Part shown: in pieces, positions 4,337 to 28,545 of the stretch
How positions within the stretch are numbered: the first letter of the stretch is position 1
Layout of the letters: each line of letters begins with the position of its first letter
Virus record (IMG/VR): IMGVR_UViG_3300041412_000011
Coordinates: 1-35,795 of that record
Length of the DNA: 35,795 nt
From: a virus
Direction: 5' to 3' (one strand)
Position numbers and translations under genes: made by a program
Notes under the pieces: generated by a model
Told to the model about the DNA's origin: nothing
Database searches by the model: none
The model's input: only the letters and a program-made list of their open reading frames with translations

Positions 4337-4804
4337 ATGGCAACTGAAGAAGCAGTGGGCACAGACCCGGCCCGCATGTTTGCCCAGGTCAACCCGAAGT
4401 CCGCGATCCGCCGCCGCGTGGATTGGGGCGTCCGCATCATCGCCGTGCTGATAGTGGGTGCAGCCGCCCTGTACCTCTACGACGCGCAGGTAGCGCCGCG
4501 GGTCAACAAGCTCGCTGCGCCTGCCGCGGTCAGCGTCGCCGCCCAACCGGGCCTGCCCAGCGGGTATTCGCAGACCGCTTTCGACAGGACCGTCAAGAGC
4601 GACCTGGCCGGTGCTCCGTTCCGGATCAGCGGCATCGCGTCGGTCAGCTGTGTGATGCCGAACTCCTGGGTTCCCGGCAAGACGTTCACCTGCTACGTAT
4701 ACGATTCCTCGAACACCGAGCTCGGCACGGCGACGGGGACGGTCGTGCCGACGCTGCCGAACTACGCGTTCAATGCGAACCTGGTGTGGACGCCGGATCC
4801 TTAG
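4337..4804 (+). CDS. Membrane-anchored DUF4333-like protein (plus-strand moron)
   Basis: 155 aa, ATG 6 nt after AGGAG. The N-terminal 25-30 residues are cytoplasmic, followed by one membrane helix (WGVRIIAVLIVGAAALYLY, residues about 35-53) preceded by arginines (IRRRVD), so the rest should be outside. The outer part contains ISGIASVSCVMPNSWVPGKT and FTCYVYDSS. This is close to the 'VsCP....kGatFtC.v.d.dG' pattern of DUF4333 in actinobacterial secreted proteins, with two Cys positioned for a disulfide. It is the only gene on this strand, inserted between LysM and tape-measure genes. It meets the tape-measure stop tail-to-tail with no gap, and it has its own candidate promoter. A superinfection-exclusion or host-surface function is an inference from this moron-like placement. 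Confidence 0.8.
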   Translation: MATEEAVGTDPARMFAQVNPKSAIRRRVDWGVRIIAVLIVGAAALYLYDAQVAPRVNKLAAPAAVSVAAQPGLPSGYSQTAFDRTVKSDLAGAPFRISGIASVSCVMPNSWVPGKTFTCYVYDSSNTELGTATGTVVPTLPNYAFNANLVWTPDP

Positions 4805-10745: not shown

Positions 10746-11384
10746 TCAGGAGGCCTCTTGCTCCACGGTGACGCCGACATAGTCGACCTCGATCGGCGCG
10801 GCAGGTGCCAGCACCGAGGGCGTCGGGATGCCGCCGAAGGGACTCATCACGTTGGCGACCGTGACGCCGAAGCGTACGATGGTGGTCATGCGCCAGTAGG
10901 TCGAGGACCGGCCCTCGGAGGCGACGTTGTAGCCGTGCCACTTGGTGATCTCGGCGAAGCCCCCAAGCGACGGGTTCTGGGCGATGGCGCCCGTGACGGC
11001 GGCCGCATAGGCGTTGCCGACGGCCCTGGACTCGTTGAAGTCCTGCGTGCCCCCGAAGAAGACGGACACGCGGGCGTCGAAGGTGGCCCGGGTCGCGCCC
11101 TGGCCCGTGGCGCCGACGCTGGCCTTGCGTTCCGGCACGCCGATGGTGCCGGGCACGATGACCATGGACTGCGAGGTCTTGGGGGCTATCGGTCGTTCCG
11201 TGGGCTGGTAGAGGTAGGACTGGGGGACGACCAGGACGGGCGCGCCTAGCTGGCGGTTGATCTCGGCGATGTAGCTCGGCAACCATTCCTCGAGCGTGCG
11301 GATCATGGCCACCTCGACCGAGCCGCCCATGTAGAGCGGCCCGAAGGCGTCCGGGAGGTAGGAGAGGTCCCAGTCCACCGTCAT
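10746..11384 (-). CDS. Putative tail terminator / neck protein
   Basis: 212 aa beginning MTVDWDLSYLPDAFGPLYMG. The ATG overlaps the stop of the gpG-like gene (ATGA), which rules out a longer upstream start. Its place between the tail completion protein and the sheath, its size, and an alternating pattern near the end (YWRMTTIVRFGVTVANVMSP) are compatible with a tail terminator. No diagnostic motif was found. It contains one SPFGG segment that weakly resembles the SPF motif of other head genes. Confidence 0.55.
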   Translation of the reverse strand: MTVDWDLSYLPDAFGPLYMGGSVEVAMIRTLEEWLPSYIAEINRQLGAPVLVVPQSYLYQPTERPIAPKTSQSMVIVPGTIGVPERKASVGATGQGATRATFDARVSVFFGGTQDFNESRAVGNAYAAAVTGAIAQNPSLGGFAEITKWHGYNVASEGRSSTYWRMTTIVRFGVTVANVMSPFGGIPTPSVLAPAAPIEVDYVGVTVEQEAS

Positions 11385-11887
11385 GCCGACACCAGCTCCG
11401 CCGCCGCGGCGCCTTCGAGCAGCCAGCCCTCCAAGATGGCGGCCCACTCGAGCGCAGCCCCGTCTGCGGCCATGTCGACGATGCGGCGCTGCGGGGGCCA
11501 GCCCGCGCCCGAGGCATGGAGGCGGAAGCCGCCCGTCTGGTGCCAGTGGGCATAAGGGACGGTGGTCATCATGGCGACCGAGAACGGGGTCCATTCCGTG
11601 TCGAAGCCTTCGCCGCCGGCGAGAGAGGCCTGCAGGACGCCCGTGTCGACGAGGATCTGGTCGTAGTTGGTGTTCTGGCGCGCCCAGGATCCCGTCATGG
11701 AGATGGTGGAGTCGGCCAGCGGTGCCCAGCCCGGGCCGTTGTCGGTGAAGCGGCGCGCCTCGATCGAATGGAAGGACTCGACGATGGCGTCGAAGGCCAG
11801 CACCCAGTTAGAGGCCCTCTCCGTCATGCCAGTGAGGATGCCCTGGAGGGCTTCGCCGCCGTCGAGGGGTTCGTAGCCGACGGTCAT
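11381..11887 (-). CDS. Virion morphogenesis / tail completion protein (Mu gpG-like)
   Basis: 168 aa, ATG with AGGGAAG upstream. The signature of the gpG-like family (Phage_tail_S) is readable: a basic-aromatic start (FHSIEARRFTDNGPGWAPLA), a Ser/Thr helix, 'ILVDTGVLQASLAG', then YAHWHQTGGFRLHASGAGWP and PQRRIVDM. The 'iL..tG.L..Sl' and 'yA..hq.G' segments are characteristic. These proteins act at the head-tail joint or tail end to complete assembly. Position directly after the connector agrees. Confidence 0.8.
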   Translation of the reverse strand: MTVGYEPLDGGEALQGILTGMTERASNWVLAFDAIVESFHSIEARRFTDNGPGWAPLADSTISMTGSWARQNTNYDQILVDTGVLQASLAGGEGFDTEWTPFSVAMMTTVPYAHWHQTGGFRLHASGAGWPPQRRIVDMAADGAALEWAAILEGWLLEGAAAAELVSA

Positions 11888-13566: not shown

Positions 13567-15015
13567 CTAGACGGCCAGCGTCGCGACGGCGTTGGTGGCC
13601 CGGGCCATGAACTGCGGGGCGCGGGTCGCAAGGCAGGTGTCGCAGACGAAGGCGAAGGGCAGGCTGTCCGGCGAGCTCGTGGTCGGGAAGACGTCCACCG
13701 TCTGCATCTCGCGCACGTACGGCCGGATGATGAAGTCCGGGTCACGCGGCAAGAGGTAGATGTTCCGCTGCCCCGTGAGGGGCGGCACCATGCTGGTGTT
13801 CGTGCCGACGTAGGCGGCCGGGTAGGTCGCAGGCACGGTCCCACCGTTGTGCGGGACCAGGGTGGCGCCGGTGTCGACTATCGACGTGGTCGGGATCGGC
13901 GTGACGCCGTCCGACAGCAATCCCACGTTGGCATCCACGTAGCCGAGCAGCGTCTCGCTGTTGGAGGCACCGCCGCCGGCCGTCCGCCACACCTTGTAAA
14001 GAATGGGGGACAGCGTCTGGCCGAGCTGAGTGACGGAGGGCGATGTCGCCCATGCCAAGGTGATGTAGTTCTCGCCGGAGTTGCTGCCGGTCGCCTGGCT
14101 GACCTCGTTGCCGGCCAGGATCTCGCCAAAACGGGCGATGACGGCGCTGACCTGGTACTTGTACGTGGTCGTGTCCGGCAGGCTGGCGGTGGAAGTCGAC
14201 CCTGTGGTGACGGTGATCGTGGTCATCGTGTTCGTGCGGGGGTTCAGGAACGAGCTCTTGATGAAGGGCACGTTGCGGTAGGTGGGCACGACCAGGCCCG
14301 CCGCCACCTCGGTGTTCGTGATCGCACCGGCGTCGGCCGCGTTGAAGCGCTGCTGGTTGGTCAACAGCTGGGCGACCTTGCTGTTCACGCCCGAGTCGAC
14401 GAGGAAGAAGTAGTCGTTGCCCCCGTCGGGGTAGACGGCCGCGTTCGATTCCACGAGCTCGATCAGTGCGTCGAAGATGGTCAGGTCGAGCGCGCCTGCG
14501 GTGACGCCCACGACGCCGCTCCAGTTGAGGGTGTTCTTCGCCGTGCTCGACGCGTCGGACACGAGCGTGTCCAGGCCGTCGAACTGGGGGTAGGGGCCGT
14601 TCAGCGTGGAAGCGGCGTTGCCCCAGATCAGGCCGGTCTCGACGTCCCATTCGAGGCCGCGTGCAGCGCCCTCGATTTCCTTCGCGCGCAAGGATCCGAT
14701 GAGGTCGGCCGTGACCGCCTCGGCGTAGCCGGTGACCCCACCGACGGCCTGCAGGTTCTTGATCGTGAACGGGTACTGCGTGTAGGTGCTCGTGCTGATC
14801 GGCCGGGCGCCGCCGTCTGTCACGAAGCCACCAGCCGCCACTTGTGAGCGCTGGTTGAAGTTGTAAACGGTCGAGCCCCAGCGGATGGACGGGAGCACGC
14901 GCACCAGGGGGGCATAGCGACGCTGGAGCTCTTGGACTACAGGGTCGATCTGCTTCTGGATCAGTGCCGCCGCGCCCGAGGCGCTGAGGACGGCCTCGGT
15001 CAGTTCAGTGGCCAT
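13567..15015 (-). CDS. Major capsid protein, HK97-like fold with Ig/Fn3-like insertion
   Basis: 482 aa, ATG 9-10 nt after AAGAAAGG. The N-terminal arm (1-60) and YPFTIKNLQAVGGVTGYAEA (81-100), SLRAKEIEGAARGLEWDVET (108-127), DALIELVESN (182-191) and YFFLVDSGVNSKVAQLL (202-218) follow the P-domain/A-domain order of HK97-type capsids of this subgroup. The C-terminus (RDPDFIIRPYVREMQTVDVF; residues 424-443) is the final A-domain strand. Residues about 262-395 look like an inserted immunoglobulin or fibronectin-type domain (TTTYKYQVSAVIARFGEILA; NYITLAWATSP; LYKVWRTAGG). Such insertions are surface-exposed in other capsids. No separate decoration protein gene is obvious nearby. Confidence 0.88.
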   Translation of the reverse strand: MATELTEAVLSASGAAALIQKQIDPVVQELQRRYAPLVRVLPSIRWGSTVYNFNQRSQVAAGGFVTDGGARPISTSTYTQYPFTIKNLQAVGGVTGYAEAVTADLIGSLRAKEIEGAARGLEWDVETGLIWGNAASTLNGPYPQFDGLDTLVSDASSTAKNTLNWSGVVGVTAGALDLTIFDALIELVESNAAVYPDGGNDYFFLVDSGVNSKVAQLLTNQQRFNAADAGAITNTEVAAGLVVPTYRNVPFIKSSFLNPRTNTMTTITVTTGSTSTASLPDTTTYKYQVSAVIARFGEILAGNEVSQATGSNSGENYITLAWATSPSVTQLGQTLSPILYKVWRTAGGGASNSETLLGYVDANVGLLSDGVTPIPTTSIVDTGATLVPHNGGTVPATYPAAYVGTNTSMVPPLTGQRNIYLLPRDPDFIIRPYVREMQTVDVFPTTSSPDSLPFAFVCDTCLATRAPQFMARATNAVATLAV

Positions 15016-15073: not shown

Positions 15074-15583
15074 CTAGGCCGGGACGCTTTGGGGCAGCAT
15101 CGGGTCGAGGGTCCGGTACAGCGTCTTCTCGAACTCCTCGGTGGTCTGGCCGGCGAGCTTGCGGGCGTCGGACTCGAAGGTCATGTCCTTGTAGGCCTCG
15201 CCCTTGGCGACGACGCCGCGGCGGACGATGGTGCCCGAGCGCCGCGCCTCCTCGATGACCTCGGCCTTGGCGGCGGTCTTGATCTCCTCGGCGAACTTCG
15301 CGAGGTCGGCGACTGTGACGGGAGCGGCCTTCGCAGCCGCGTCCGCCTCTGCGACGAGACGCCGGGCCTTGTCGAGTTCGGACTCGACCGGCGGGGTGGC
15401 CGGGACGCCGACGAGGGCCTCCAGGACGGCTTCACGGGTGAGCACGGGCTTGGTCTCGACGACGGATGCCTTCAGGAGGGCCTGCAGCTCCTCGGTCGAG
15501 TACGTGGTCTTGGCGGGGTCCAGGGAGGCCGCCTGCTCGGGAGTGAGCAGCGCCTTGACTTGCTCCGCGCTGTGATCGGGCAT
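15074..15583 (-). CDS. Probable internal-start scaffold protein nested in the protease gene
   Basis: In-frame ATG at 15581-15583 begins MPDHSAEQVKALLTPEQAAS, preceded by AAGAAAGGAAGGG, one of the best ribosome sites in the window and not needed for the long protein. The 169-residue product lacks the protease domain and zinc ribbon and consists of charged helices. The lambda C/Nu3 pair is the known precedent for a scaffold made from an internal start of the protease gene. Inferred, not shown. Confidence 0.55.
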   Translation of the reverse strand: MPDHSAEQVKALLTPEQAASLDPAKTTYSTEELQALLKASVVETKPVLTREAVLEALVGVPATPPVESELDKARRLVAEADAAAKAAPVTVADLAKFAEEIKTAAKAEVIEEARRSGTIVRRGVVAKGEAYKDMTFESDARKLAGQTTEEFEKTLYRTLDPMLPQSVPA

Positions 15584-16795
15584 TTGGCCCTTCCTTTCTT
15601 CGGCCGGGGCTTCCTCAGCTCCGGGAACGGGTTGCCCGCACTGCGGGCAGAACAGGGAACCTTGGGGGACGGCCTCGCCGCACGAGGCGCACTCCATGTC
15701 GTCGTCGTCCTCGGCGCCGGGCTTCAGGGCGTCGATGTCCCCGTCGTTGTCCGGGTCGAGTGACAAGAGCCCGGCGAGGGCGGCCCGCGCCATGGCTGCG
15801 CCGGCCTTGGGGAGATCGGACGGGTCGTTGATCCAGCCCGAGACGTTGATGGAAGCGGCGCCGTTGTCGAGCGAGGTGGAGGCGTAGGCCTCGATGACGT
15901 CGACGAACTCGGAGCCCATGCGGGCCAGCATCTCGTCGAGCTCGACGGACTCCTTGGCGATATCGATGCCGAAGCGCTTGCAGGCCGCCTTGATCTTGCC
16001 CTTGATGCGGGCGAGCTGGTTGGCCGTGTACTTGGCGGCGTTCTTGGCCTTGTTTATGTATCCCCACGCGCTCCGGGCGTGTGACTTCGTGTCCAGGGGG
16101 TACCGAAGGCGCTTGTCTTTTTGGTAGCCGGGGTCGGCATAGCTGCTGCCTGGCGTGAGCGGCTTGGGACTGTCCGCCTCATGCGTGCACACTGTGCACA
16201 ACCCGTCCGGCATCGGGTGGGCGAGCTCGGCCTCGAGCAGCGCGAGCACCGAGGGCGTCTCGTCGAGTTCGAGGACCACCGAGTCGAGCGACTCGCAGAT
16301 CGTGGCCCCGCTGAGGGCCGCCATCTCGCCGAGCTTGGCGGTGTCGATCTGGGCGTTGGGGAGCCCGGGGCGGTGCGTGAAGTCCAAGGCCGTCACGTCG
16401 AGGTCGGGCGCCGTCTCGTTGCCGTCGCCGTCGGTGTCGACGTCGCCCACCCAGGAGCCGAAGATCGAGACCGTCTTGAGCGCGGCCTTACCCGACTTGT
16501 CGGGCACGGCCATGGCGGCCACGTCGCGACCAGCGTCGGTCGGGATGATGTCGGCCTCGAAATGACCGGCGCCAGCGTCGTCCTGGTAGACCTTGGTGAC
16601 GTGGGCGGCCGTGGCACGGGTGTCGCCCTCGGCGTTCGCCTTGTGCGAGGTGTGCATCGGGATGACCTGGCCGCCGGACAGGCGTCCGTTCATGCGGTCG
16701 ACGGCGCGCCCGATGTTCTCCCGGGTGTACCGGCGCTTATTTTTAGAAATTCCGGGAGCCAGGAAGACGCCCTTGAGTGTGCCGATTCGAGCCAT
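15074..16795 (-). CDS. Capsid maturation protease with zinc ribbon and C-terminal scaffold region
   Basis: 573 aa, ATG after AAAGGAGCCACGA. Residues 1-145 fit a prohead protease: NKRRYTRENIGRAVDRMNG (19-37), His48/His51 (PMHTSH), and LKTVSIFGSW with Ser110 as candidate nucleophile. Residues 230-279 (YPLDTKSHARSAWGYINKAK...) match DUF6582-type helical domains. A double Cys pair (CASCG 369-373, CPQCG 383-387) forms a zinc ribbon. From 405 on the protein is helical and charged like a scaffold (VEAD, KFAEEIKTAAKAEVIEEARR). So protease and scaffold are encoded in one frame, with a probable internal start for the scaffold. Location directly before the capsid gene agrees. Confidence 0.75.
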   Translation of the reverse strand: MARIGTLKGVFLAPGISKNKRRYTRENIGRAVDRMNGRLSGGQVIPMHTSHKANAEGDTRATAAHVTKVYQDDAGAGHFEADIIPTDAGRDVAAMAVPDKSGKAALKTVSIFGSWVGDVDTDGDGNETAPDLDVTALDFTHRPGLPNAQIDTAKLGEMAALSGATICESLDSVVLELDETPSVLALLEAELAHPMPDGLCTVCTHEADSPKPLTPGSSYADPGYQKDKRLRYPLDTKSHARSAWGYINKAKNAAKYTANQLARIKGKIKAACKRFGIDIAKESVELDEMLARMGSEFVDVIEAYASTSLDNGAASINVSGWINDPSDLPKAGAAMARAALAGLLSLDPDNDGDIDALKPGAEDDDDMECASCGEAVPQGSLFCPQCGQPVPGAEEAPAEERKGQMPDHSAEQVKALLTPEQAASLDPAKTTYSTEELQALLKASVVETKPVLTREAVLEALVGVPATPPVESELDKARRLVAEADAAAKAAPVTVADLAKFAEEIKTAAKAEVIEEARRSGTIVRRGVVAKGEAYKDMTFESDARKLAGQTTEEFEKTLYRTLDPMLPQSVPA

Positions 16796-16796
16796 T

Positions 16797-17009
16797 CGTG
16801 GCTCCTTTCGTGGAAGAGGACTAGGCGTCCTACACGCACCGTCGTTAGTGGGCGGTGCCCCCTTCGGGCTTGTCAGGCCCTCTGTGCCTGAAACGGGCTA
16901 GACCCTGTCCGTAGTCCCTGTTGTTCCTGACCGCGGGTTGACGCCCGACCGACACCAGGCGGTTTCTACGGCACTTCCCCTGGGACGCCTAGAAGCGGAG
17001 GCCCGAGAC
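16797..17009 (-). promoter_or_regulatory. Structured 5' leader RNA candidate before the protease/capsid genes
   Basis: This 213-nt gap has no gene but many complementary segments in nested order. P1 is 16983-16992 with 16821-16830 (CTAGGCGTCC, 10 bp). Inside it P2 is 16966-16971 with 16909-16914 (CCGTAG/CTACGG), P3 is 16959-16963 with 16930-16934 (ACCGC/GCGGT), and P4 is a GGG/CCC loop at 16935-16946. A hairpin lies at 16873-16891 (6 bp, 7-nt loop), and another at 16836-16858 (GCACCG/CGGTGC). P1 ends about 12 nt before the ribosome site of the protease gene. This could be a cis-regulatory RNA or a stable small RNA; no known family recognised. Confidence 0.45.
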
Positions 17010-17690
17010 TTAGCTCTCGGCCAGGGCGCTACACATGCCGTACCAGTTGGTCCCATCAGAGACGAGAGTGAACACGGAGACGGCACCAGCCGCGCCCACG
17101 GCCGCAAACCCCGAGGTGACCTTTGCCCCCGAGAAGGCGAGACTGGTGGCAGATGTACCCGCAGCATTGGTGAAGATGCAGGTCACCATCGCTCCGGCCG
17201 AGGCGGTCGGCATCGTCAGCACCAGAGCGTCCGAGGACGTACCGGTGACGGTGTTCACGCCATAGGCCAGCGTGCCAGTGGTGGTCTTGACGCCGAGGAC
17301 GGTAACGGCGACCGCTCCTCTGTAGACGGTCTGTCCTGCGGCAGCAGCGTCTGTCGCGGCTGTTCCATTGGCGAGACCCGTGATCTTGCTGGCACCCATC
17401 GCGATCGGGCCGGACATGGTGCCACCCGCGAGCGGGAGGTCGGCGGGAGCGGCGGGGAGGCCGTGGTCGTGGTCTGAGCGGGCGTAGCTGGTGCCCACCC
17501 CGACGACAGCCGCGGCGCCATAGGTGTCGGGACCGGTGACGGTGGTCGCGGCAGAGGCGACGGTGGTCGTCCCGTTGATGAGGGCGGTTTCGATGGCGAC
17601 AATGGCGTCGTTGATGAGCGCTGCAGGCGGCAGTGTCTCGTCACCGCCGGGGAACGTGTCGACGGAACTGGGGAACTTGCTGGTGGTCAT
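17010..17690 (-). CDS. Fibre-like protein encoded in the head module (possible head fibre)
   Basis: 226 aa, ATG with AGGAAGG upstream. It contains the collar-type pattern of phage fibres: GTSYARSDHDHGLP (the SDHDHG segment is typical), then PLAGGTMSGPIAMGASKITG and LANGTAATDAAAAGQ. The rest is a small beta domain rich in Thr/Ala/Gly/Val with a tryptophan-aromatic ending (LVSDGTNWYGMCSALAES). Tail fibres usually sit in the tail module. Here the gene lies between the MuF-like and protease genes, which suggests a head fibre or capsid appendage. The neighbouring structured leader follows its stop. Confidence 0.6.
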   Translation of the reverse strand: MTTSKFPSSVDTFPGGDETLPPAALINDAIVAIETALINGTTTVASAATTVTGPDTYGAAAVVGVGTSYARSDHDHGLPAAPADLPLAGGTMSGPIAMGASKITGLANGTAATDAAAAGQTVYRGAVAVTVLGVKTTTGTLAYGVNTVTGTSSDALVLTMPTASAGAMVTCIFTNAAGTSATSLAFSGAKVTSGFAAVGAAGAVSVFTLVSDGTNWYGMCSALAES

Positions 17691-17711
17691 GGGGTTCCTT
17701 CCTCGGGAGGG

Positions 17712-18617
17712 TTACAGCGAGACGGTGCCGGCCGGTGCCGTCGAACACCGACAGTTGAAATGCAGCGGCGGCTCGGGCAGGTCCTGGAGGCTGTAGGCGC
17801 CCGCTATGGACGAGTCGAGCGGGGCGCACTCCTCGCAGGCGTCGGGCTGGGTGACGAAGTCGAAGGAGTCGACGCCGGCGGCCGCCATCTGAGCGACCTG
17901 GGCCTGGACCATGGCCGAGTGGATCGACTCGTCGATATAGGCCTGGACACCCACGCCCTTGTTGATGATGGCGTTGACGGCCTGGGCCATCTCCTCCTGC
18001 CCGAAGTCACGGGCAATGGCATCGGCGATGCACTTGCCGACGTCGCCCGCGAGGCCGCCCAGCTCGTCCGCGATCCACGTCCCGGCCTCGGCGCCATAGG
18101 TATCCAGCTCACGCAGGTTGGCGAGTGTGTCGTCGAACAGCTTGTCCAGGTCGATCGTGATGTCGGCCGGCGTGACGCCTGCATCCTGCAGCAACGCCGT
18201 GGCCTGCACGACACCCTCGGCTGCGGCCTCGGCCTCCGCGAGCGAGACGAGCTCGGTCCACTCCTGGGCGGCCTCGGGGTTGTCCCGCAGCCACTGGGTC
18301 AGAGCCACGAGGGCTAGAGCCTTGGCCGCGTCCCGTCGGATCGTGGCCGTGCGGTCGCCGGTCATGTCGTCGTCGTTCGGCCTCGTCACATGCCGCTGGA
18401 CCCGGGCCACGTAGGCGCTGGCGTCGAAGCTCTTGGCGATCTGGCGCGCTACGGGCTTGATCTTGCGCGCCCAGCGCTTGGAGAGCTTCGCTCGGCGCTC
18501 TTCGAGGTCGGCACGCAGGGCTTCGTAGACGACGATGCGCTCGGCGAGGGACAGGTCGCCTAGCTCCTCGGCGATGCCCTGGGCCAGCTCATGGACCTGC
18601 TCGACGGTCAGAGTCAT
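17712..18617 (-). CDS. MuF-like minor head protein
   Basis: 301 aa starting MTLTVEQVHELAQGIAEELG, ATG overlapping the previous stop (ATGA), which rules out the longer upstream extension. The C-terminal region carries the Mu gpF-like signature: AAGVDSFDFVTQPDACEECA, then PLDSS and PPLHFNCRC. The spaced Cys pairs and final 'H.nCRC' are typical. The N-terminal two thirds are helical. MuF proteins sit inside or on the head near the portal and may be injected with DNA. Confidence 0.8.
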   Translation of the reverse strand: MTLTVEQVHELAQGIAEELGDLSLAERIVVYEALRADLEERRAKLSKRWARKIKPVARQIAKSFDASAYVARVQRHVTRPNDDDMTGDRTATIRRDAAKALALVALTQWLRDNPEAAQEWTELVSLAEAEAAAEGVVQATALLQDAGVTPADITIDLDKLFDDTLANLRELDTYGAEAGTWIADELGGLAGDVGKCIADAIARDFGQEEMAQAVNAIINKGVGVQAYIDESIHSAMVQAQVAQMAAAGVDSFDFVTQPDACEECAPLDSSIAGAYSLQDLPEPPLHFNCRCSTAPAGTVSL

Positions 18618-18937
18618 CGTGGCCGCGCCCCCCGCTTGTTCCGAAGCCAGTGGCCGAACGCCCGCCGTCTCGTCTTGGCCAGCCTCAGGCGCCGCTTGAA
18701 GTGGAACCCGTGCGCCCGCTTCCATCCGGACGGTCCCCCGCTGCCCTGGGCCGTGGGGGACAGGCGCTTGACGAACCGCTTCGGCTCGCCGCGGAGGGGG
18801 AGCTTCTTGAGCTTGTAGGTGGTGTGCGCTGCGATCTTGTGCGTGCCGAGGACCTGGCGGGTGCTGCCCTTCAGGGACTTGGGCGCCGGGATGCCCGAGA
18901 CCGGGGCGCGGAGCGAGCGGCGGTGAACCTTTGTCAC
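18614..18937 (-). CDS. Very basic small protein next to MuF
   Basis: 107 aa from GTG at 18935-18937, which overlaps the stop of the upstream gene (GTGA). About one third of residues are Lys or Arg (TTYKLKKLPLRGEPKRFVKR; FHFKRRLRLAKTRRRAFG), with almost no acidic residues. It could bind DNA or RNA or be packed in the head. No family recognised. The gene before it encodes an acidic protein. Confidence 0.6.
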   Translation of the reverse strand: MTKVHRRSLRAPVSGIPAPKSLKGSTRQVLGTHKIAAHTTYKLKKLPLRGEPKRFVKRLSPTAQGSGGPSGWKRAHGFHFKRRLRLAKTRRRAFGHWLRNKRGARPR

Positions 18938-19182
18938 CGGATGATCTGGTACCCGCCCCAAGGACTCTCGGGCTCGGGCGGCATCGCTGGCGCGGGTTCG
19001 GACGCGTCGTCCTCGGCCCAAGGAAGCGCTGCGAGGTCGGCGAAGGCACCGTGGGCCATGTAGTGGGTCCACGTCTCAGGCGAGTCGACTTGGTTGTCCA
19101 GTTCGAGCGATTCCGTCTCCTGGGCGACAAGAATCCCCTGGTCATCGAGCATGTCGCGTGTGACGCTGATGACGTGCTTCAT
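18934..19182 (-). CDS. Acidic small protein of the head module
   Basis: 82 aa, ATG 7 nt after AAAGGAGCACGC. The sequence starts MKHVISVTRDMLDDQGILVA and has an acidic, proline-rich tail (WAEDDASEPAPAMPPEPESP). It overlaps the basic gene by 4 bp, so the two are probably co-translated. Function unknown. Confidence 0.6.
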   Translation of the reverse strand: MKHVISVTRDMLDDQGILVAQETESLELDNQVDSPETWTHYMAHGAFADLAALPWAEDDASEPAPAMPPEPESPWGGYQIIR

Positions 19183-19274: not shown

Positions 19275-19603
19275 GATCCCGTCGGTACCGGGCGCCTCGT
19301 CTGGGTCATCGGCTTCATCGCTTCGAGGTGCTTCGTCTGGCACGGTCGCACCGTCCCTAGGGTGTCGGCGTCCTGGGTGGCGAGGACGCGAGCGGCCTTC
19401 AGCAGCTCGGCGTTGCGGGTGAACGAGCACTCGGCGTGGGCGTCGTGCCCGTCGTCGAAGCACACGCGCTGCCCCGGCTCGATCGGGGCCCCGCAGCGGT
19501 AGCAGCGGCCGGGCTTGAGCCGGAGGCGGTTGCGTTGCTGGCGCGTCGAACGCGTGATGCGCCCACGGCGGGGCAGGCGGTTGGCGCGGGTGAACTCGCT
19601 CAC
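19271..19603 (-). CDS. Small zinc-finger protein after the portal gene
   Basis: 110 aa from GTG at 19601-19603, overlapping the portal stop (GTGA). The N-terminus is very basic (RANRLPRRGRITRSTRQQRN). A metal-binding segment follows: CYRCGAPIEPGQRVCFDDGH with a further His and Cys (DAHAEC), fitting a C2-HC or treble-clef type site. The tail is helical and basic. Function unknown; nucleic-acid binding is plausible. Confidence 0.6.
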   Translation of the reverse strand: MSEFTRANRLPRRGRITRSTRQQRNRLRLKPGRCYRCGAPIEPGQRVCFDDGHDAHAECSFTRNAELLKAARVLATQDADTLGTVRPCQTKHLEAMKPMTQTRRPVPTGS

Positions 19604-21369
19604 GAATGCACCCTCGCCCGCCGTCTCTGCTCGTACACGGCGCGCCAGTTGGACTTGCGGGCGATGTACTCGGCCAGATGCTCGCCCGGCAGGCGCCCCT
19701 CGTCCTCGGGGGCGGGCGGTTGGCCCTCGGGCTGCTGGTGGGGCTGAGCCGGCTGGGGCTGTGCGGTCGTGTCGAGCGCCGTCCCCTTGGACTTCGCCGC
19801 CACCGAGGCCTTCGACAGGGCGTTCAAGTCGGCCCAGAGGGTGATGTTCTGGCGCTCGATCAGGACCGGGTCGTCGCCACCCTCGATGGGCGGCTCGCTG
19901 ATGTCGTCGCGGTAGCGGTTCGCGGTCCAGCTGCCGTTGCGGAGCCGCATGTCGCGGATCTCCTCGATGACCAGGTCGTCGCGCCAGTCCACCTCCGAGA
20001 AGCTGATGCGCCAGTCCTTGATGCCGTAGGCCTGGTAGCACAGGGCGAAGGTGAACTTCTCCAGCACCAGCTCCGAGGTCGGGCCGCAGGTGGTGACTCT
20101 AAAGGTCTTGTCCTGGCCGCTCTCGGCCCCCTGACCGCCGAGCGACCCGGGCTCCATGACGCCGGCCTTGCGGGGCGGGACGCCGTAGGTGGACAGGATG
20201 TCGTTGCGGGCGCCGTCGAGCACCTCCATCCAGTAGTCCAGCTTGTTCTGCGACAGCTCCTTGACCTCGGTTTTGATGCCGCCCGACAACCCGCCCTCGG
20301 TCGTGAACAGGTTGCCGATGTTGCGCGTGCCGAGGTTGCGCGCCGCGTACTGGCTGAGCTTCTTCTCGATCTCGGGGGGTGCCATGTTCATGGGGAAGTC
20401 GACGTGCAGCCGTGGCGGGTCGCCCCGCTTCATGGTCTCCTTGATCAAACCGGCCGCGAAAAGCCAGGTCTTGACCGGGACGCTGGCCTTGGTCGTGGGC
20501 GAGACGCCGTAGAGGGAGGCACCCGGCGAGTCGAGCTTGACGTGGATGACCTCGTGCGCCTCGAAGTCCACGCGCTTGCCGGTCGTGGTCATCTGCACGT
20601 AGGCGACGACCTTGCCGTCGACCTCGCGCCCGACGTTGCCATGCTCGTCGGCGATGACCGACATGGACTGGCAGTCGAGGGGCCAGAGGGCCACCGGCTC
20701 GTTGCCGATCCAGGTCACCTCCACGAAGGCGTCGCCGAAAATGAGGGCGTCGGTGACGGCGCGGCGCATGAGCTGGCGGATGTCGTCGCTCGGGTTGCAG
20801 TAGTCGAGCAGCTCCTGGATGCGGGCGATGCCCGGCGGAGGCGCGGGCTTGGCCCTGACCTGCTCGGGGTCGAGGTTGAGCGGTTCGAGCGTGAGCCCGC
20901 CGGCGGTGATGGTGCGGGCGATGCCGTCGACGCAGACCGCCACCCAAGGGCAGGTGAGGTACGCCTGCAGGAGCTCGGTCATCGCCGTCTGGCGGTCGGG
21001 CGCGCCGGGGGTGGACGACGTGCCGGAGTTGGTCGGCGTCGTGCCGCCGACGGGGATGCCGTTCACGTAGCCGAGGCGTGCCACCTGGCGGCGCGGAGGC
21101 TGTGGCAGGACCGGTGCGGCCTCGAGGGCATGCGACTGGCCCCGGCGCCAGGGCAGCACGGAACGCGACGGGGTTGTGGCCTCCACGAAGGGCGAAGGGG
21201 CGGTGCGGCCAGCGTCGGCGCGCGCCATGAGCGGGCCGGCCTCGGAGACCGGGACCTCCATCATGGACAGCTCGCGCTCGATGGTGGCCAAGGCCAGCTC
21301 GGCGTGCGCGTGCTCCAGGCGGCCAAAGATGGGGTCAGGCGCGCTCTTCTGCCGGTTCCAGAAAGCCAA
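19600..21369 (-). CDS. Portal protein
   Basis: 589 aa. The start is TTG (21367-21369), 5 nt after a perfect AGGAGG, which decides it. The core matches phage portals: LLQAYLTCPWVAVCVDGIAR, AVTDALIFGDAFVEVTWIGN, VIHVKLDSPGASLYGVSPTT, KASVPVKTWLFAAGLIKETM, LDGARNDILSTYGVPPRKAG and VLEKFTFALCYQAYGIKDWR. The N-terminal 100 residues are a low-complexity extension with an APSPFVEATT motif (21184-21195). The C-terminal 80 residues are Pro/Gln-rich, then basic. The portal forms the DNA entry ring and docks the terminase. Confidence 0.92.
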   Translation of the reverse strand: MAFWNRQKSAPDPIFGRLEHAHAELALATIERELSMMEVPVSEAGPLMARADAGRTAPSPFVEATTPSRSVLPWRRGQSHALEAAPVLPQPPRRQVARLGYVNGIPVGGTTPTNSGTSSTPGAPDRQTAMTELLQAYLTCPWVAVCVDGIARTITAGGLTLEPLNLDPEQVRAKPAPPPGIARIQELLDYCNPSDDIRQLMRRAVTDALIFGDAFVEVTWIGNEPVALWPLDCQSMSVIADEHGNVGREVDGKVVAYVQMTTTGKRVDFEAHEVIHVKLDSPGASLYGVSPTTKASVPVKTWLFAAGLIKETMKRGDPPRLHVDFPMNMAPPEIEKKLSQYAARNLGTRNIGNLFTTEGGLSGGIKTEVKELSQNKLDYWMEVLDGARNDILSTYGVPPRKAGVMEPGSLGGQGAESGQDKTFRVTTCGPTSELVLEKFTFALCYQAYGIKDWRISFSEVDWRDDLVIEEIRDMRLRNGSWTANRYRDDISEPPIEGGDDPVLIERQNITLWADLNALSKASVAAKSKGTALDTTAQPQPAQPHQQPEGQPPAPEDEGRLPGEHLAEYIARKSNWRAVYEQRRRARVHS

Positions 21370-21383
21370 TTCAACCTCCTGGG

Positions 21384-21611
21384 TCAGACGAACGGCGAGG
21401 CTGCGACCGTGCCGGGGGGAAACTCACGGGGCGGCTCTTTGGAACGGTCGACGTCGGGGGGCATGGCGAAGTCCTTGGAGGCGAACACGCCGCCGAACAT
21501 GGGCAGGCGCTCCCTGCCGTCGGGATCGACGCCCGGGTAGTGGGCCTCGGGCTCCTGCGGTTCCTCGGCGAGCAGGTCGTCGGGAAGCGGGTCGGGCTCT
21601 TTGTCAGGCAT
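21384..21611 (-). CDS. Small acidic protein between terminase and portal
   Basis: 75 aa, ATG at 21609-21611, overlapping the terminase 3' end by 8 bp. It is acidic and Pro-rich (MPDKEPDPLPDDLLAEEPQE) and ends PPGTVAASPFV, placing an SPF motif at the very C-terminus. No family recognised. Position and motif suggest a packaging or head assembly accessory. Confidence 0.6.
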   Translation of the reverse strand: MPDKEPDPLPDDLLAEEPQEPEAHYPGVDPDGRERLPMFGGVFASKDFAMPPDVDRSKEPPREFPPGTVAASPFV

Positions 21612-23229
21612 GGCTCCCGTTCCCGTCGTGACCGTTGCCGGCAAAAGGCGACACCGCCGTGCCGACGCCGGGCGTGAGTGTGAGCGGCTTGGTCGTGGGC
21701 TTCGGGCGCTCGGGCTCGCGGGCGAAGGGCGAGCCGACGCCGCCCATCATCTGCAGGGCGTAGCGAAGGGCGTCCGCGGCGTGGTCCTCAACTTTGCTGT
21801 CGACGTCCTCGACCTTGGTCTTGTCGTAGGGCAGGTCGGGCAGCGTCCTCACGAGGTTCGGGCACGTCCCGTCCAGCACATGAAGCATCGGGCAGCTGTC
21901 CTGGTGCCATTTGCCCTGCTGGCGCAGGTATTCGTGCACTCGGCAGATCGGCCCGTCGCTTAGGGCGTCGTGGAGCTTCGCCCAGCCGGCGAGGCGGTCA
22001 TGGCCGGCCGCGATGCAGGGCAAGCCCTCCTGCGCGTACTCCTCGTAGATCGACAGGCCGTCGGTGAGGTGGTTCATGGTCGACGGGTCGATGGCATGGC
22101 GCACGTAGGTCTCGCCGGCCTCGCGCTCCAGGGCCAGGATGCGCCTTGCTTGGTCGCGCACGCCCACCCCGGTTTCGTAAGCCTCGCGGTAAAGCCAGAT
22201 GCGGTGATCGCCATCGACGGCGAACCAGAGGACGGCCCACGGCGCGCTCCGGCCGTAGTCGATGCCGGCCCAACGCTCCCATGTTGGGGGGAGCGTCGTG
22301 CGGGGGACGACGTGGCGGTCGTGGTCCCACTCCTCGAAGACCTGGCCGATGAACACGTCCCAGTTCCCATCCTTCATCGCTGCACGACGGGCCGGGTCCT
22401 TGATGGCGGTCAACTGGGCGAGGTAGCTGGCGTTCAGGTGGAAGTTGTCGAGATACTTCGCCGGGATGAACTCCGTCGGGCGCCCCTGTTCGTCAACTAC
22501 CGAGTGTGCCCCGTAACCGGTTGGGTCGATGAACCGGGCCTTGAGCGCCGAGTGCCCGTGCCCTCCAGGGTTCGAGGCGAGCCGCACGCCGAGCACCGGG
22601 ATGCCGGTGTTCGATGTGCGCTGGCGTTCCTCCAGGTACTCGATCACACCGGGGAGCACAAGACCAGCCTCGTCTATGAGGAGGAGCTGGTACTCCGACC
22701 CCTGCTGCCGACTGACGTCGTCCAGCGTCTCGGCGTAACGGAACCGGATGAACGATCCGTTGCGGAAAAGCAAGGTGTTCTTACCAGCCAGCCACCGGGC
22801 ACCCACTGGACGGGCAAAGTCGACCTTGGGCAGTTCGTCGAAGAATGAGACTTCAAGCTCGGGATACGAGCGGCGGAACGCGCCGATATGGATTCCCGGG
22901 TAGCGGACGGCGGCCCGGATGCCCTCCATGAGCAGGGCCCTGGTCTTGCCGCCCCCCATGGCGCCGCCGTACAGCACGGCATGGGCGGTCGTAGCGTGGA
23001 AGCGCTCTTGCGGGCAGGTGCCGCACATCGGCGGCAGCTGGTTTTCAGGCACTCCGGCGTTGCGTGCATCCCAGCGGATCTTGCAGTTGGGTTCATAGCC
23101 CAGGTCAGCGAAGACATCCCGATACCGCTGCTTGCTGGCTACTCGCGCCGCCAGCTCATTGCGCCGGCGAAGCAGCTCCTGGTACTGGAGAACCGTCTCG
23201 GGCTTCGCTGTGATCACCGGTGTCGTCAC
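21604..23229 (-). CDS. terL: Terminase large subunit (DNA packaging ATPase/nuclease)
   Basis: 541 aa from GTG at 23227-23229, 9 nt after GGAGG; this start lies inside the 3' end of the small-subunit gene. ATPase: Walker A YGGAMGGGKT (87-96) and Walker B LLLIDEAG (182-189). Between Walker A and B lies AFRRSYPELEVSFFDELPK. A coupling segment LASNPGGHG follows. Nuclease: WAGIDYGRSAPWAVLWFAVD (320-339) with Asp324, HAIDPS near 379, and DVDSKVEDHAADALRYAL (475-492) with the conserved late Asp residues. The tail after 495 is Pro-rich with two SPFA motifs. It cuts and translocates phage DNA through the portal. A CX2C pair (CGTC, near 69-72) precedes the ATPase core. Confidence 0.93.
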   Translation of the reverse strand: MTTPVITAKPETVLQYQELLRRRNELAARVASKQRYRDVFADLGYEPNCKIRWDARNAGVPENQLPPMCGTCPQERFHATTAHAVLYGGAMGGGKTRALLMEGIRAAVRYPGIHIGAFRRSYPELEVSFFDELPKVDFARPVGARWLAGKNTLLFRNGSFIRFRYAETLDDVSRQQGSEYQLLLIDEAGLVLPGVIEYLEERQRTSNTGIPVLGVRLASNPGGHGHSALKARFIDPTGYGAHSVVDEQGRPTEFIPAKYLDNFHLNASYLAQLTAIKDPARRAAMKDGNWDVFIGQVFEEWDHDRHVVPRTTLPPTWERWAGIDYGRSAPWAVLWFAVDGDHRIWLYREAYETGVGVRDQARRILALEREAGETYVRHAIDPSTMNHLTDGLSIYEEYAQEGLPCIAAGHDRLAGWAKLHDALSDGPICRVHEYLRQQGKWHQDSCPMLHVLDGTCPNLVRTLPDLPYDKTKVEDVDSKVEDHAADALRYALQMMGGVGSPFAREPERPKPTTKPLTLTPGVGTAVSPFAGNGHDGNGSHA

Positions 23230-23698
23230 GGTCCTGGGCCTCCAACATGGCCATCTCCTGATTGAGGCTCTTGATCGCCTCGGTGAAGGTGTCCTCGGTG
23301 ATGACCTCGACGCGGCTGCGGGTCGGCTCGTCGAGTCCGAGCAGGTCAGCGCGTCTTTTCGCCACGCGGTCGAAAGCGCCGTTGAGCGTCGCAAGCTGCT
23401 CAGGCGTCAGGTCCTTGCCATACTCCGTCCAGAGCTTGCGCTCCCGCCGGTCGAGCTTCAGCAGCTCGGCGACCTTGGCCGCCGCGAGGTCCTCGCTGTC
23501 GGTCCCGATCTCGTGGAGCCCCCGGAGTACGGCCCTGCCCGCTGTCCGCCTGCTCACGCCCAGCTCGGTGGCGATCTGGTCCAGCGTCAGGCTGGCAGAC
23601 CGGAGCTCAGCGGCTCGCTTGTCCTGCTCGACGGTCTCTACGGCCCGGATCGCCCGACCGCGGCCGTCCCTAGCCTTGATGCTGCGGACAGTGGCCAT
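23156..23698 (-). CDS. terS: Terminase small subunit-like DNA-binding protein
   Basis: 180 aa, ATG with AGGAAGGA upstream. The N-terminal half has a helix-turn-helix: RSASLTLDQIATELGVSRRT (residues about 33-52). A helical region (AKVAELLKLDRRERKLWTEY) and a charged C-terminus follow. It overlaps the large terminase start by 74 bp. Small terminase subunits bind the packaging site. The family assignment rests on fold pattern and position. Confidence 0.75.
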   Translation of the reverse strand: MATVRSIKARDGRGRAIRAVETVEQDKRAAELRSASLTLDQIATELGVSRRTAGRAVLRGLHEIGTDSEDLAAAKVAELLKLDRRERKLWTEYGKDLTPEQLATLNGAFDRVAKRRADLLGLDEPTRSRVEVITEDTFTEAIKSLNQEMAMLEAQDRDDTGDHSEARDGSPVPGAASPAQ

Positions 23699-25347: not shown

Positions 25348-25934
25348 GTGGTTGCCTCCTGTGGCTTCACGGCGCGGACGCTCGCCTTGATGGCTTCGAG
25401 CGCGGCGAGGCCTTCGGGTGTGGGTGCTTCTCCCATCTCCATTTCGACGCACGCTTCTTTTATAAGGGGACGGGTCGGGTCGGGAAGACGGGACATTTTG
25501 TCGCGTCGCGTCGCGGGGACGCGGGACATTTTCGGGACATTTGTCCTTGGCTTGTCACGCTGGGACATTTGCGGGACACTTCCGTTCGTCGCAGTCTTTG
25601 CAGCCCGCCAGCTGGCCTTTCGCGCGGCCTCGGCGTCTCGCTTCTCCTTGTTCTGCTCGGCGCTCGTGTTGTACTCAAGGAAATCGTGTATCTGCCAGCC
25701 CCCGCGCGCATCGTCTTCCCACAGCCCCACGCGCACAAGAATTTCTGCGAGTTTCAGCGCGTTTTTGTCGCCCCCAGCGATCTGTCCCAACATGTCCCGT
25801 GGGACATATCCGTCGCGTTCCATGAGCGAGCTCCAGCACATCGCGGACGTGTTCAGACCCCGTGCCGCGAGGCCGGCAGCCACCAGCTTCGGGTGGCACC
25901 AAGAACGGTCGTCAAGACGGACCCAGGTCATCAC
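25344..25934 (-). CDS. Replisome-organiser-like protein (helix-turn-helix N-terminus)
   Basis: 196 aa from GTG at 25932-25934 (or 195 aa from the adjacent ATG, which shares one base with the previous stop). The N-terminus, TWVRLDDRSWCHPKLVAAGL then AKLAEILVRVGLWE and GGWQIHDFLEYN, matches the common phage family 'WvrlDd.f.dHPKv..aG..a..L......y.....DG.iP...l......l...L...GLWe....Gy.ihdfl.yn'. That family is usually linked to replication initiation. The C-terminal half is charged and repetitive (VPQMSQRDKP, VPKMSRVPAT, KMSRLPDPT). The DNA of this part holds the GGGACATTT repeats. Likely binds phage DNA; the start of replication is inferred. Confidence 0.7.
   Translation of the reverse strand: MMTWVRLDDRSWCHPKLVAAGLAARGLNTSAMCWSSLMERDGYVPRDMLGQIAGGDKNALKLAEILVRVGLWEDDARGGWQIHDFLEYNTSAEQNKEKRDAEAARKASWRAAKTATNGSVPQMSQRDKPRTNVPKMSRVPATRRDKMSRLPDPTRPLIKEACVEMEMGEAPTPEGLAALEAIKASVRAVKPQEATT
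25490..25581. repeat. Iteron-like GGGACATTT cluster inside the replication-like gene
   Basis: Plus-strand GGGACATT(T/C-variant) at 25490-25499, 25523-25532, 25534-25543, 25562-25571 and a variant GGGACACTT at 25573-25581. Starts are spaced 33, 11, 28 and 11 bp. A related palindrome lies at 25792-25807. A short AT-rich stretch (CTTCTTTTATAAG) lies just to the left. Candidate replication origin or initiator-binding sites. Confidence 0.5.
25792..25807. repeat. Palindrome ATGTCCC-GT-GGGACAT
   Basis: Perfect 7-bp arms separated by 2 bp, built from the same GGGACAT core as the cluster 210 bp away, within the same gene. Confidence 0.6.
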
Positions 25935-28357
25935 GGGACCATCACATCAAACAAGGACGCCTGCGACGACTCAGCCTCGGCCTGGATCAGGAATGAGGCA
26001 GCGGTGCGGAAGTAGCTTTCCTTCAGTTCGATCCCGTAGAACCGGCGCCCCCATCGCAACGCCTCGACGCCCTCTGATCCGATGCCAGCGAAGGGCGAGA
26101 ACACTGTTTCACCACGGTTCGACCAGATACGCACGACACGTTCAATAAGTCCAAGCTGTAACGGGCAAATGTGCCGTTCATCATCATGCTCCTTGCCCAA
26201 GGCAGCGTTCAGCACGTCGGTCTCGCGGATGTCGTACCAGACGTGATGCGCCCATGTAATCCACTCCTGATTACTCACATCATCGGCCACCACCGGCACG
26301 GTCGACTCCCCTGGCGTCGTAAAGATAAGCAGACATTCCGATGCCTGGGGGTGCGATTGCAGGGCATCCCGTTTGAGTGTGACAAAGAGGAGGTTTTGGT
26401 CTTTCGTTCGAGTCGCTTGCGCCTGGGGGTTCTTGTCGATGGCGATACGGGCGCGATAGATAAACCCAGCCGCCTCCATTGCTATACGCAAGTCGCTCGG
26501 ATAGTCGTAGGTGTGTCGGTAACCGTGCTGCCCAGCGAACCGGATCACGTCCATCGCGTGAATAGCAACGATGCGACCGGGCCGCATCACCCTCAATAAC
26601 TCGACAACGAAAAACTCCCATTGCAGCCGATACTCATCATCAGACTTGACATTGCCCATGTCGCCAGCGGCCGAGGAATAAGTGAACAGATTGGCGAAAG
26701 GCGGTGAGAACACCGCTAAGTCCATCGACCCTTCAACCATCGTCGGCATGTGGGCGATACAATCGGCCTGCACAAGTGACCACCGCTGACCATCAAGACG
26801 GTCTATCTCGGGCTGCGGAAGCGTCATAAGTACATGCCTTTCTGTGGTGTCCGATGGACGTAGCACAGCCACGTAGGCCTCCTCTTGCAGTTCGCCGTCT
26901 TGCCGGAACGTTGCCTCTTTCGATAACACGTTCTGACAAATAGCGTCATCTAGCTCGGTGAGCGGCGCGTAGACCTCGACAGGCCGAGTCTGGCCGTAAC
27001 GATGACAACGACGGATGGCTTGAAACCACGACTCAAAGCTGTCCGTCATCGACGAAAACACCATGACCCGGCACGATTGGAGGTTTAGCCCGTGGGCAAA
27101 CATGCGCGGCTTGGCAATGAGAACACGCGGACCACCGCCAGCGGCGAAGGCCTGGAGAATGCCAGTCCGGTCGGCCATCCTTGTCTTGCCAGAGAGAACC
27201 ACGGCATCAGGAATAAGGGCGGCAAGTTGGGCCGCTTCTTCATCGTAATTGACCCACACAAGCACCTGCTCATCGCTGTGGGTCTTATTGGCGATACGCG
27301 CCACCACGTCAGGCTTAGCCGACAGAAATCGACGTATTGGGCTTCCGAGTTCGAACCCGTTTGCGATCTGCACGAGCTTCGTTCGTGACGTGATGCCACC
27401 CGGTGTCGCCCCGAAGAACGACGGTTGGTTGCCAGCTTCCCATCCTCGTGCGGCGACGCGCTGCTCCTCGGTGAGTCCTACTCGTGGGTAGTGAACGTTC
27501 AGCGCCGGCAAGTCCATCGTGTGATCCTCGAAACCGTAGGCACGAGGATCGCGCATAAAGACCGACCACGCCGCAAGGTGACGATAGAACGCAGACACAG
27601 CATGATGCTTGAGTTGCCATTCCCCATCACGGTTGACAAAGAACGCCGCTAGGAACTCGCGCGTCGATCGAACTACGTCGAGAAAGTAGGCGTGCTCGGC
27701 GTACTCAAGCCGGTCATTCGGCGCCGGCGTGGCGGAACAGCACAGCTTGAAGCGGAGTCCTTTAGCCGACCTTATGAGTGCTGTTCGCCGAGACCCCATC
27801 GATGCCTTGAGCACTGAAGACTCATCGAGCACGAGGCCCGTTACCGATAGCGGCTCCGTGCGGTTGTCAAGCTTCTCGTAGTTCGTGATCCCGATACCTT
27901 CGCCCGATGCCAGCCAGTCGTTCAGCGTCCTGCGTTCGGTCAGGTCCTCAACCATCTCGTAGCCGTAGAACCGCACGGCCTCAGTGCGCGTCTGGGCGCA
28001 GATATTCAACGGCGCCACGATGAGCACGCGACCCCCGATGACCATAAGGATCTGCCGCGCCCACTCAAGCTGCATGGCCGTCTTACCCATGCCGGTCATA
28101 GCGAAGATGGCGAACCGTTCCCGTTCTAGCGCTAACTTCACGATCCACGCTTCATAATCGAACAGGTAGTCCGCCGGCGGCAGCCAACAAGGGCGCTCGG
28201 TCGTTGAGTCCAGTCCGATGGTAGCGAGCAGCGCTGAAGCGGTCGAGACCGTGCGCTCATCAGCGAAATGGAACTCGGGCAGAGCGCGAACGGCTAGCAG
28301 GTCTGCATAATCCTCAATGGTAAGCAGAGCGCGGTCGTTCTGCCGAGTGACGATCAC
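25931..28357 (-). CDS. Helicase-DNA methyltransferase fusion (SNF2-like SF2 + beta-class MTase)
   Basis: 808 aa from GTG overlapping the upstream stop (GTGA). N-terminal SF2 helicase: motif I AMTGMGKTAM (86-95), Ia VLIVAPLN (111-118), motif II LDESS (177-181), motif III SAT (208-210). The second RecA domain has AHGLNLQSCRVMVFSS (421-436) and motif VI FQAIRRCHRYGQTRPVEVY (445-463), SNF2-like. C-terminal amino-methyltransferase: motif IV DLAVFSPPFANL (546-557), then motif I VFSPFAGIGSEG (752-763), with RRFYGIELKESYF (771-783). Motif IV before motif I is the beta-class order, so N6-adenine or N4-cytosine is the expected product. The gene is visibly less GC-rich than neighbours. P1 DarB is a precedent for a phage methylase-helicase fusion against restriction; this protein is much smaller. 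Confidence 0.85.
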   Translation of the reverse strand: MIVTRQNDRALLTIEDYADLLAVRALPEFHFADERTVSTASALLATIGLDSTTERPCWLPPADYLFDYEAWIVKLALERERFAIFAMTGMGKTAMQLEWARQILMVIGGRVLIVAPLNICAQTRTEAVRFYGYEMVEDLTERRTLNDWLASGEGIGITNYEKLDNRTEPLSVTGLVLDESSVLKASMGSRRTALIRSAKGLRFKLCCSATPAPNDRLEYAEHAYFLDVVRSTREFLAAFFVNRDGEWQLKHHAVSAFYRHLAAWSVFMRDPRAYGFEDHTMDLPALNVHYPRVGLTEEQRVAARGWEAGNQPSFFGATPGGITSRTKLVQIANGFELGSPIRRFLSAKPDVVARIANKTHSDEQVLVWVNYDEEAAQLAALIPDAVVLSGKTRMADRTGILQAFAAGGGPRVLIAKPRMFAHGLNLQSCRVMVFSSMTDSFESWFQAIRRCHRYGQTRPVEVYAPLTELDDAICQNVLSKEATFRQDGELQEEAYVAVLRPSDTTERHVLMTLPQPEIDRLDGQRWSLVQADCIAHMPTMVEGSMDLAVFSPPFANLFTYSSAAGDMGNVKSDDEYRLQWEFFVVELLRVMRPGRIVAIHAMDVIRFAGQHGYRHTYDYPSDLRIAMEAAGFIYRARIAIDKNPQAQATRTKDQNLLFVTLKRDALQSHPQASECLLIFTTPGESTVPVVADDVSNQEWITWAHHVWYDIRETDVLNAALGKEHDDERHICPLQLGLIERVVRIWSNRGETVFSPFAGIGSEGVEALRWGRRFYGIELKESYFRTAASFLIQAEAESSQASLFDVMVP

Positions 28358-28545
28358 AACCCCACCCCGTACACCTCGCCCACGAGCGCCATCATCAGCT
28401 CCGGCTTCGAACCCCAGTACCAGGCGAAGTGGCGCGGGCAGATGCCGGTCGGGTCGTGGTGACCTCGCTCGAACCGCGGGTCCCGGCAGAGCCAGCACGC
28501 CTTGCGCGGGCGACCGCGAGGCCGGGTGGGGGCCTGGGTGGTCAC
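28354..28545 (-). CDS. Small zinc-finger-like protein
   Basis: 63 aa from GTG overlapping the previous stop (GTGA). Basic N-terminus (TRPRGRPRK, AT-hook-like GRPR), then CWLCRDPRFERGHHDPTGIC and PRHFAWYW, giving C-X2-C...H-H...C-X2-H ligands. Probably a small nucleic-acid-binding protein. It lies directly upstream of the helicase-methyltransferase gene and may be co-translated with it. Confidence 0.55.
   Translation of the reverse strand: MTTQAPTRPRGRPRKACWLCRDPRFERGHHDPTGICPRHFAWYWGSKPELMMALVGEVYGVGL

Follow-up and report, generated by a model that had tools for sequence, protein, structure and literature searches.

In the window, by which we mean the entire 35,795-nt stretch of viral DNA analysed, the protease-like and capsid genes are preceded by a 213-nt gap that holds a 172-nt core closed by a perfect 10-bp helix. 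The gap and its helices persist in three phages and are missing, together with the body of the upstream gene, from a fourth. This joint absence makes the element look, on genome comparison, like part of an exchangeable upstream accessory cassette, not a constant capsid leader. We tentatively favour a reading in which the cassette brings along a folded cis element, one that would keep an accessory cistron apart from the protease and capsid cistrons. Known from three metagenomic contigs, the element remains an unproven candidate and not a demonstrated regulator.

The surroundings of the element in the window are a standard head operon, with the following features.

16797–17009, minus strand: non-coding gap of 213 nt, with a fibre-like gene on one side and a protease-like gene on the other.
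16802–16808, minus strand: ribosome-binding site AAAGGAG of the protease-like gene, also kept in the relative L003.
17010–17690, minus strand: upstream gene of 226 aa, to whose cassette the element appears to belong.
15074–16795, minus strand: downstream gene of 573 aa, with a DUF6582 segment and a zinc ribbon.
21604–23394: terminase large subunit of the head operon.
19600–21369: portal of the head operon.
17712–19145: Mu-F-like minor head protein of the head operon.
13567–15015: SU10-like major capsid protein of the head operon.

The stop of the upstream ORF (17010–17690) and the start of the downstream ORF (15074–16795) lie 213–214 nt apart, both on the minus strand. The first-pass annotation had singled this gap out as unusual; it is real and is rare among the structural genes, where other apparent gaps are mostly filled by ORFs. 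The upstream gene carries a PLAGGTMSG-type repeat common to many viral contigs and probably encodes a head/tail-fibre or decoration protein, a family search of it giving no matches above the cut-off. The 573-aa product is called protease/scaffold-like because of its position and N-terminal sequence and not through a protease family match, and we infer its role on that basis. Elsewhere in the window, a plus-strand ORF at 4337–4804 has a membrane-anchor-like start, runs counter to the structural genes, which otherwise lie on the minus strand, and is likely an accessory gene. At 25931–28498 (minus strand), a single protein of 855 aa unites a DEAD/helicase domain and an N6/N4 DNA methylase domain.

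In IMG/VR, searches at the protein and DNA level located the element at the same genomic place in two further phages, L002 (95%) and L004 (90%). A fourth phage, L003, is without the element and has the capsid genes as well as a protease-like protein 83% identical to that of the window, whose gene stands behind a 35-nt spacer with the same AAAGGAG ribosome site. The window–L003 alignment ends at 16810 and restarts at 17597, leaving 16811–17596 unaligned between flanks at 83–84%. At 4637–4965 of L003 the fibre-like gene is broken: its start is kept, an early stop interrupts the frame and a divergent C-terminal domain follows. L003 thereby reveals presence and absence of a unit between conserved genes, as in an accessory cassette. 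Phage 'moron' or accessory cassettes are alike in that an accessory fibre-like gene and its non-coding tail are present or missing together, flanked by head genes that are conserved; they differ in that no promoter or terminator of the cassette's own was recognised here, a scan of 16500–17800 for sigma-70-type promoters and for terminator-like sites returning none of either. The first-pass annotation had proposed that a folded RNA in the gap controls capsid-gene expression or acts as a small RNA. Control of capsid-gene expression received no positive support, because the link is instead between the element and the fibre-like gene upstream of it, and L003 possesses protease and capsid genes and no element. 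An independent trans-acting small RNA between the two genes is very unlikely: a non-coding segment that stands free, has a closed outer helix and is tied to an accessory cassette would suit such an RNA, but the region from 16500 to 17800 offers it neither a sigma-70-like promoter nor a terminator-like site, and no second copy of the element was found in the searched records.

The core aligns without indels in all three carriers, with 94.8% (L002) and 90.1% (L004) identity to the window, and a 5-nt indel falls just outside it. The RNAalifold consensus, comprising the closing helix and the arms, was simplified to 47 pairs; its parts and a competing hairpin are as follows.

16821–16992, minus strand: core element of 172 nt, free of indels among the three carriers.
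16983–16992, minus strand: 5' strand of the closing helix, CTAGGCGTCC, the perfect complement of 16821–16830.
16821–16830, minus strand: 3' strand of the closing helix, GGACGCCTAG, unchanged in all three carriers.
16909–16971, minus strand: arm A, with outer stem CCGTAG/CTACGG (16966–16971 with 16909–16914 in the RNAalifold consensus).
16874–16907, minus strand: arm B, a CAGG/CCUG stem and an inner GCC/GGC hairpin with a variable loop.
16836–16858, minus strand: hairpin GC(A/G)CCG/CGGUGC with a variable loop, in the RNAalifold consensus.
16817–16831, minus strand: AGGAC-GCCUA-GUCCU hairpin, which excludes the closing helix and competes with it when the start region is folded along.

The closing helix, 16983–16992 with 16821–16830, pairs perfectly and is invariant in the window, L002 and L004, and it ends 12 nt ahead of GAAAGGAG, bearing out both the pairing and the spacing first annotated. 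A perfect Watson–Crick helix of at least 10 bp occurred in 2.9% of 1000 dinucleotide shuffles, a figure that does not count the choice of this site among 36 kb, and a chance origin of the helix is only moderately unlikely. Its two strands could also be taken as the terminal inverted repeats (CTAGGCGTCC/GGACGCCTAG) of a MITE-like mobile element, as they bound the conserved core exactly and L003 has a short spacer instead. Yet the paired 10-bp termini occur, among 2.9 million viral contigs, only in L091 and L098, which are the contigs of L004 and L002; an internal 22-mer is absent from an 84,980-species genome collection; direct target duplication was not seen beside the repeats; and L003 also lacks most of the upstream gene and hence presents an unclean empty site. 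The single copy number largely refutes a mobile element of this type, and we regard it as highly improbable.

Other searches likewise returned the same carriers or nothing. IMG/VR DNA scans, one of them by 16-mer, gave only L002 and L004, and blastn found no further homologues in phages or plasmids. The best other short match of a three-sequence profile had E = 0.086, and short matches read directly, for example in L099, resemble coding DNA. No prophage was found in the genome collection by capsid-protein alignment. The first-pass annotation had recognised no known RNA family; correspondingly, Rfam 15 gave no match in the window at the gathering threshold, the sole match at E ≤ 10 (10.5 bits, on the other strand) is a chance one, and a tRNA/tmRNA search returned none.

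The AGGAC/GUCCU hairpin uses the 3' strand of the closing helix and adjoins the ribosome site, so that the two structures are mutually exclusive in all three phages. In partition functions that include the start region, the closing helix has a probability of about 15% in the window, and the three phages span about 15%, 43% and 96%. These features could describe a riboswitch-like translational switch of the protease, scaffold and capsid cistrons, in which the choice between closing helix and hairpin would expose or hide the UCCU that lies opposite the ribosome site; the bases of both structures are invariant in the three carriers. Translational riboswitch leaders similarly combine a multi-helix domain, a basal helix near the ribosome site and an alternative hairpin. 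The element differs from them in having no family match in Rfam, in a gene context that suggests no ligand and in an alternative hairpin of the kind expected by chance: an equally long one is available in 27% of shuffled contexts, and the AGGAC/GUCCU hairpin is for that reason not significant. The hairpin that forms locally over the ribosome site is also weak (−1.9 to −3.3 kcal/mol), and L003 has the same gene behind its 35-nt spacer. We consider such a switch quite unlikely.

The substitutions among the carriers are compatible with the consensus structure. Of the 141 sequence-by-pair cells, 99.3% pair. Within arm A the outer stem encloses CCUGG/(U,C)CAGG, UCG/CGG and CGGG/CCCG (16926–16959), and pairing is kept through changes of 16971 from C to U and of 16930 from U to C; in the hairpin at 16836–16858, a change of 16856 from A to G still pairs, as G-U. 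The three nested helices first annotated here, CCGTAG/CTACGG, ACCGC/GCGGT and GGG/CCC, are all present in the window, but the outer pair of ACCGC/GCGGT becomes A-C in L004, and the alternative CCUGG with UCAGG/CCAGG, which conflicts with ACCGC/GCGGT, pairs in all three carriers. Paired columns account for 5 of the 22 variable core columns, and four of these five keep a standard pair, most changes being in loops; because the structure, with 94 of the 172 core positions paired, was derived from the same alignment, this count is biased. Covariation in homologues, which the first-pass annotation had looked to, did not materialise: two-sided compensatory changes numbered zero and one-sided consistent changes four, in a sample of three sequences, 90–95% identical, that has almost no power. 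The consensus energy of the real substitutions was equalled or bettered in 1 of 300 random and in none of 171 shifted placements. On a normalised conservation index, 65 of 300 random trials and 31 of 171 shifted ones did as well, and the index is not unusual.

Fold stability makes a poor case for structure. The whole gap, expected to fold better than shuffled sequence if structured, did not do so: its energy was −79.6 kcal/mol, and the shuffles averaged −83.4 (z = +0.81). The core at 16821–16992, closing helix included, reached z-scores of −1.2 in the window, −2.2 in L002 and −1.6 in L004, and the window interior without the closing helix had z = +0.68. The reverse complement scored similarly or better, and the transcribed strand is therefore not singled out. 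The minimum free energy (MFE) folds of the three carriers have the closing helix in common and differ in the rest. The evidence for a functional RNA is weak. A structured segment with z = −2.94, situated at the 3' end of the upstream gene, was also considered and rejected, its 13-nt inverted repeat not being conserved in L002 or L004.

Neighbouring genes average about 79% identity at third positions, and the core (94.8% and 90.1%) lies above that. Third-position windows at or above the core identity are nonetheless found in 37 of 654 cases on the contig of L002 and in 122 of 1058 on that of L004 (6–12%), and conservation as proof of function is ruled out by windows so often equally identical. 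We read such windows as segment exchange between these mosaic genomes. In the final ~50 codons of the upstream gene (17010–17165, minus strand), any pair of carriers shows 1–3 differences over 153 nt even with third positions counted, and about one quarter of the third positions in the remainder of the fibre-like gene differ from the window. Similarity to L004 falls right after the upstream stop codon. The near-identity of these codons is best read as recent exchange, with overlapping constraint as the alternative; the boundary near the stop is unexplained. Two other stretches of the window, 11100–11533 and 18600–18924, match relatives at ~98% of third positions, where the mean is 77–79%, and would be recent exchange tracts or products of overlapping constraint.

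Conservation caused by a concealed gene had been raised at the outset; ORFs were searched for, and none is conserved across the gap in the three carriers. In the window, an 89-codon frame (16898–17167, minus strand) does extend from inside the upstream gene to the gap, and L002 has a similar open frame, but in L004 the frame ends a few codons past the upstream stop owing to an indel. Other frames are interrupted by stops, the codon-position bias of the gap is inconsistent and a Pfam match is absent. A protein-coding gene across the gap is already contradicted and is the least probable of the readings weighed.

The gap may instead be a passenger spacer, a GC-rich non-coding tail moved along with the fibre-gene cassette by recombination, possibly decayed from a former gene, with no RNA function and with helices that reflect chance complementarity of GC-rich DNA. 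This is almost as likely as the folded cis element. It would account for a gap and an interior that fold no better than shuffles, for a core identity inside the mosaic background and for an L003 that manages without the element, and the near-identical last codons of the upstream gene suggest recent exchange at the junction. It fits less well with a perfect 10-bp helix that only 2.9% of shuffles produce and that is invariant, or with 172 nt of core that carry no indels and rarely change at paired columns.

Under the folded cis element, which we tentatively prefer, the gap would be the 3' portion of an exchangeable cassette made of the fibre-like gene and its non-coding tail, with the Mu-F-like minor head gene on one side and the protease and capsid genes on the other. 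As part of a polycistronic mRNA from the minus strand, the 172-nt tail would take on a multi-branched fold that the 10-bp helix closes. So folded, it would act as a cis insulator that keeps translation of the fibre gene apart from that of the protease gene, and may also mark a boundary of mRNA processing or stability between the accessory and capsid cistrons. The invariant closing helix, the indel-free core and the few paired-column changes argue for this reading, as do real substitutions that beat random and shifted placements on consensus energy, the loss of the element along with most of the upstream gene in L003, and the lack of an ORF conserved across the gap. Against it stand an MFE no better than shuffles and the lack of double compensatory changes, the ordinary normalised index and a conservation within the mosaic range, the lack of one MFE fold common to the carriers beyond the closing helix, and the probability of only ~15% for that helix in the window when the start region is included.

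Some RNAs of the GOLLD, ROOL and OLE type occur in phage genomes, and GOLLD, ROOL and OLE are several times larger than this element. They are large, ornate, structured non-coding RNAs (PMC12286853, Nature 2025); the likeness is that of a structured non-coding RNA, and the gap element differs in being without any Rfam match. Closer in kind are the candidate structured intergenic RNAs of bacteria and phages, which were sought through mutation patterns across homologues (PMC2864571, Genome Biol 2010; PMC8040213, Genome Biol 2021) and are likewise non-coding and intergenic, with a multi-branched predicted fold and unknown function. Compared with those candidates, the present element has only three near-identical homologues and zero covariation. 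That it represents a new phage RNA family of ~172 nt, multi-branched, travelling with an exchangeable head-fibre-like gene and setting expression of the adjoining protease and capsid cistrons, is unlikely, though we would leave it some room.

If the element does work as an RNA, accessory head-gene cassettes would bring along their own RNA control of the neighbouring capsid genes. This would help to explain how new genes come to be accepted into a tightly packed head operon.
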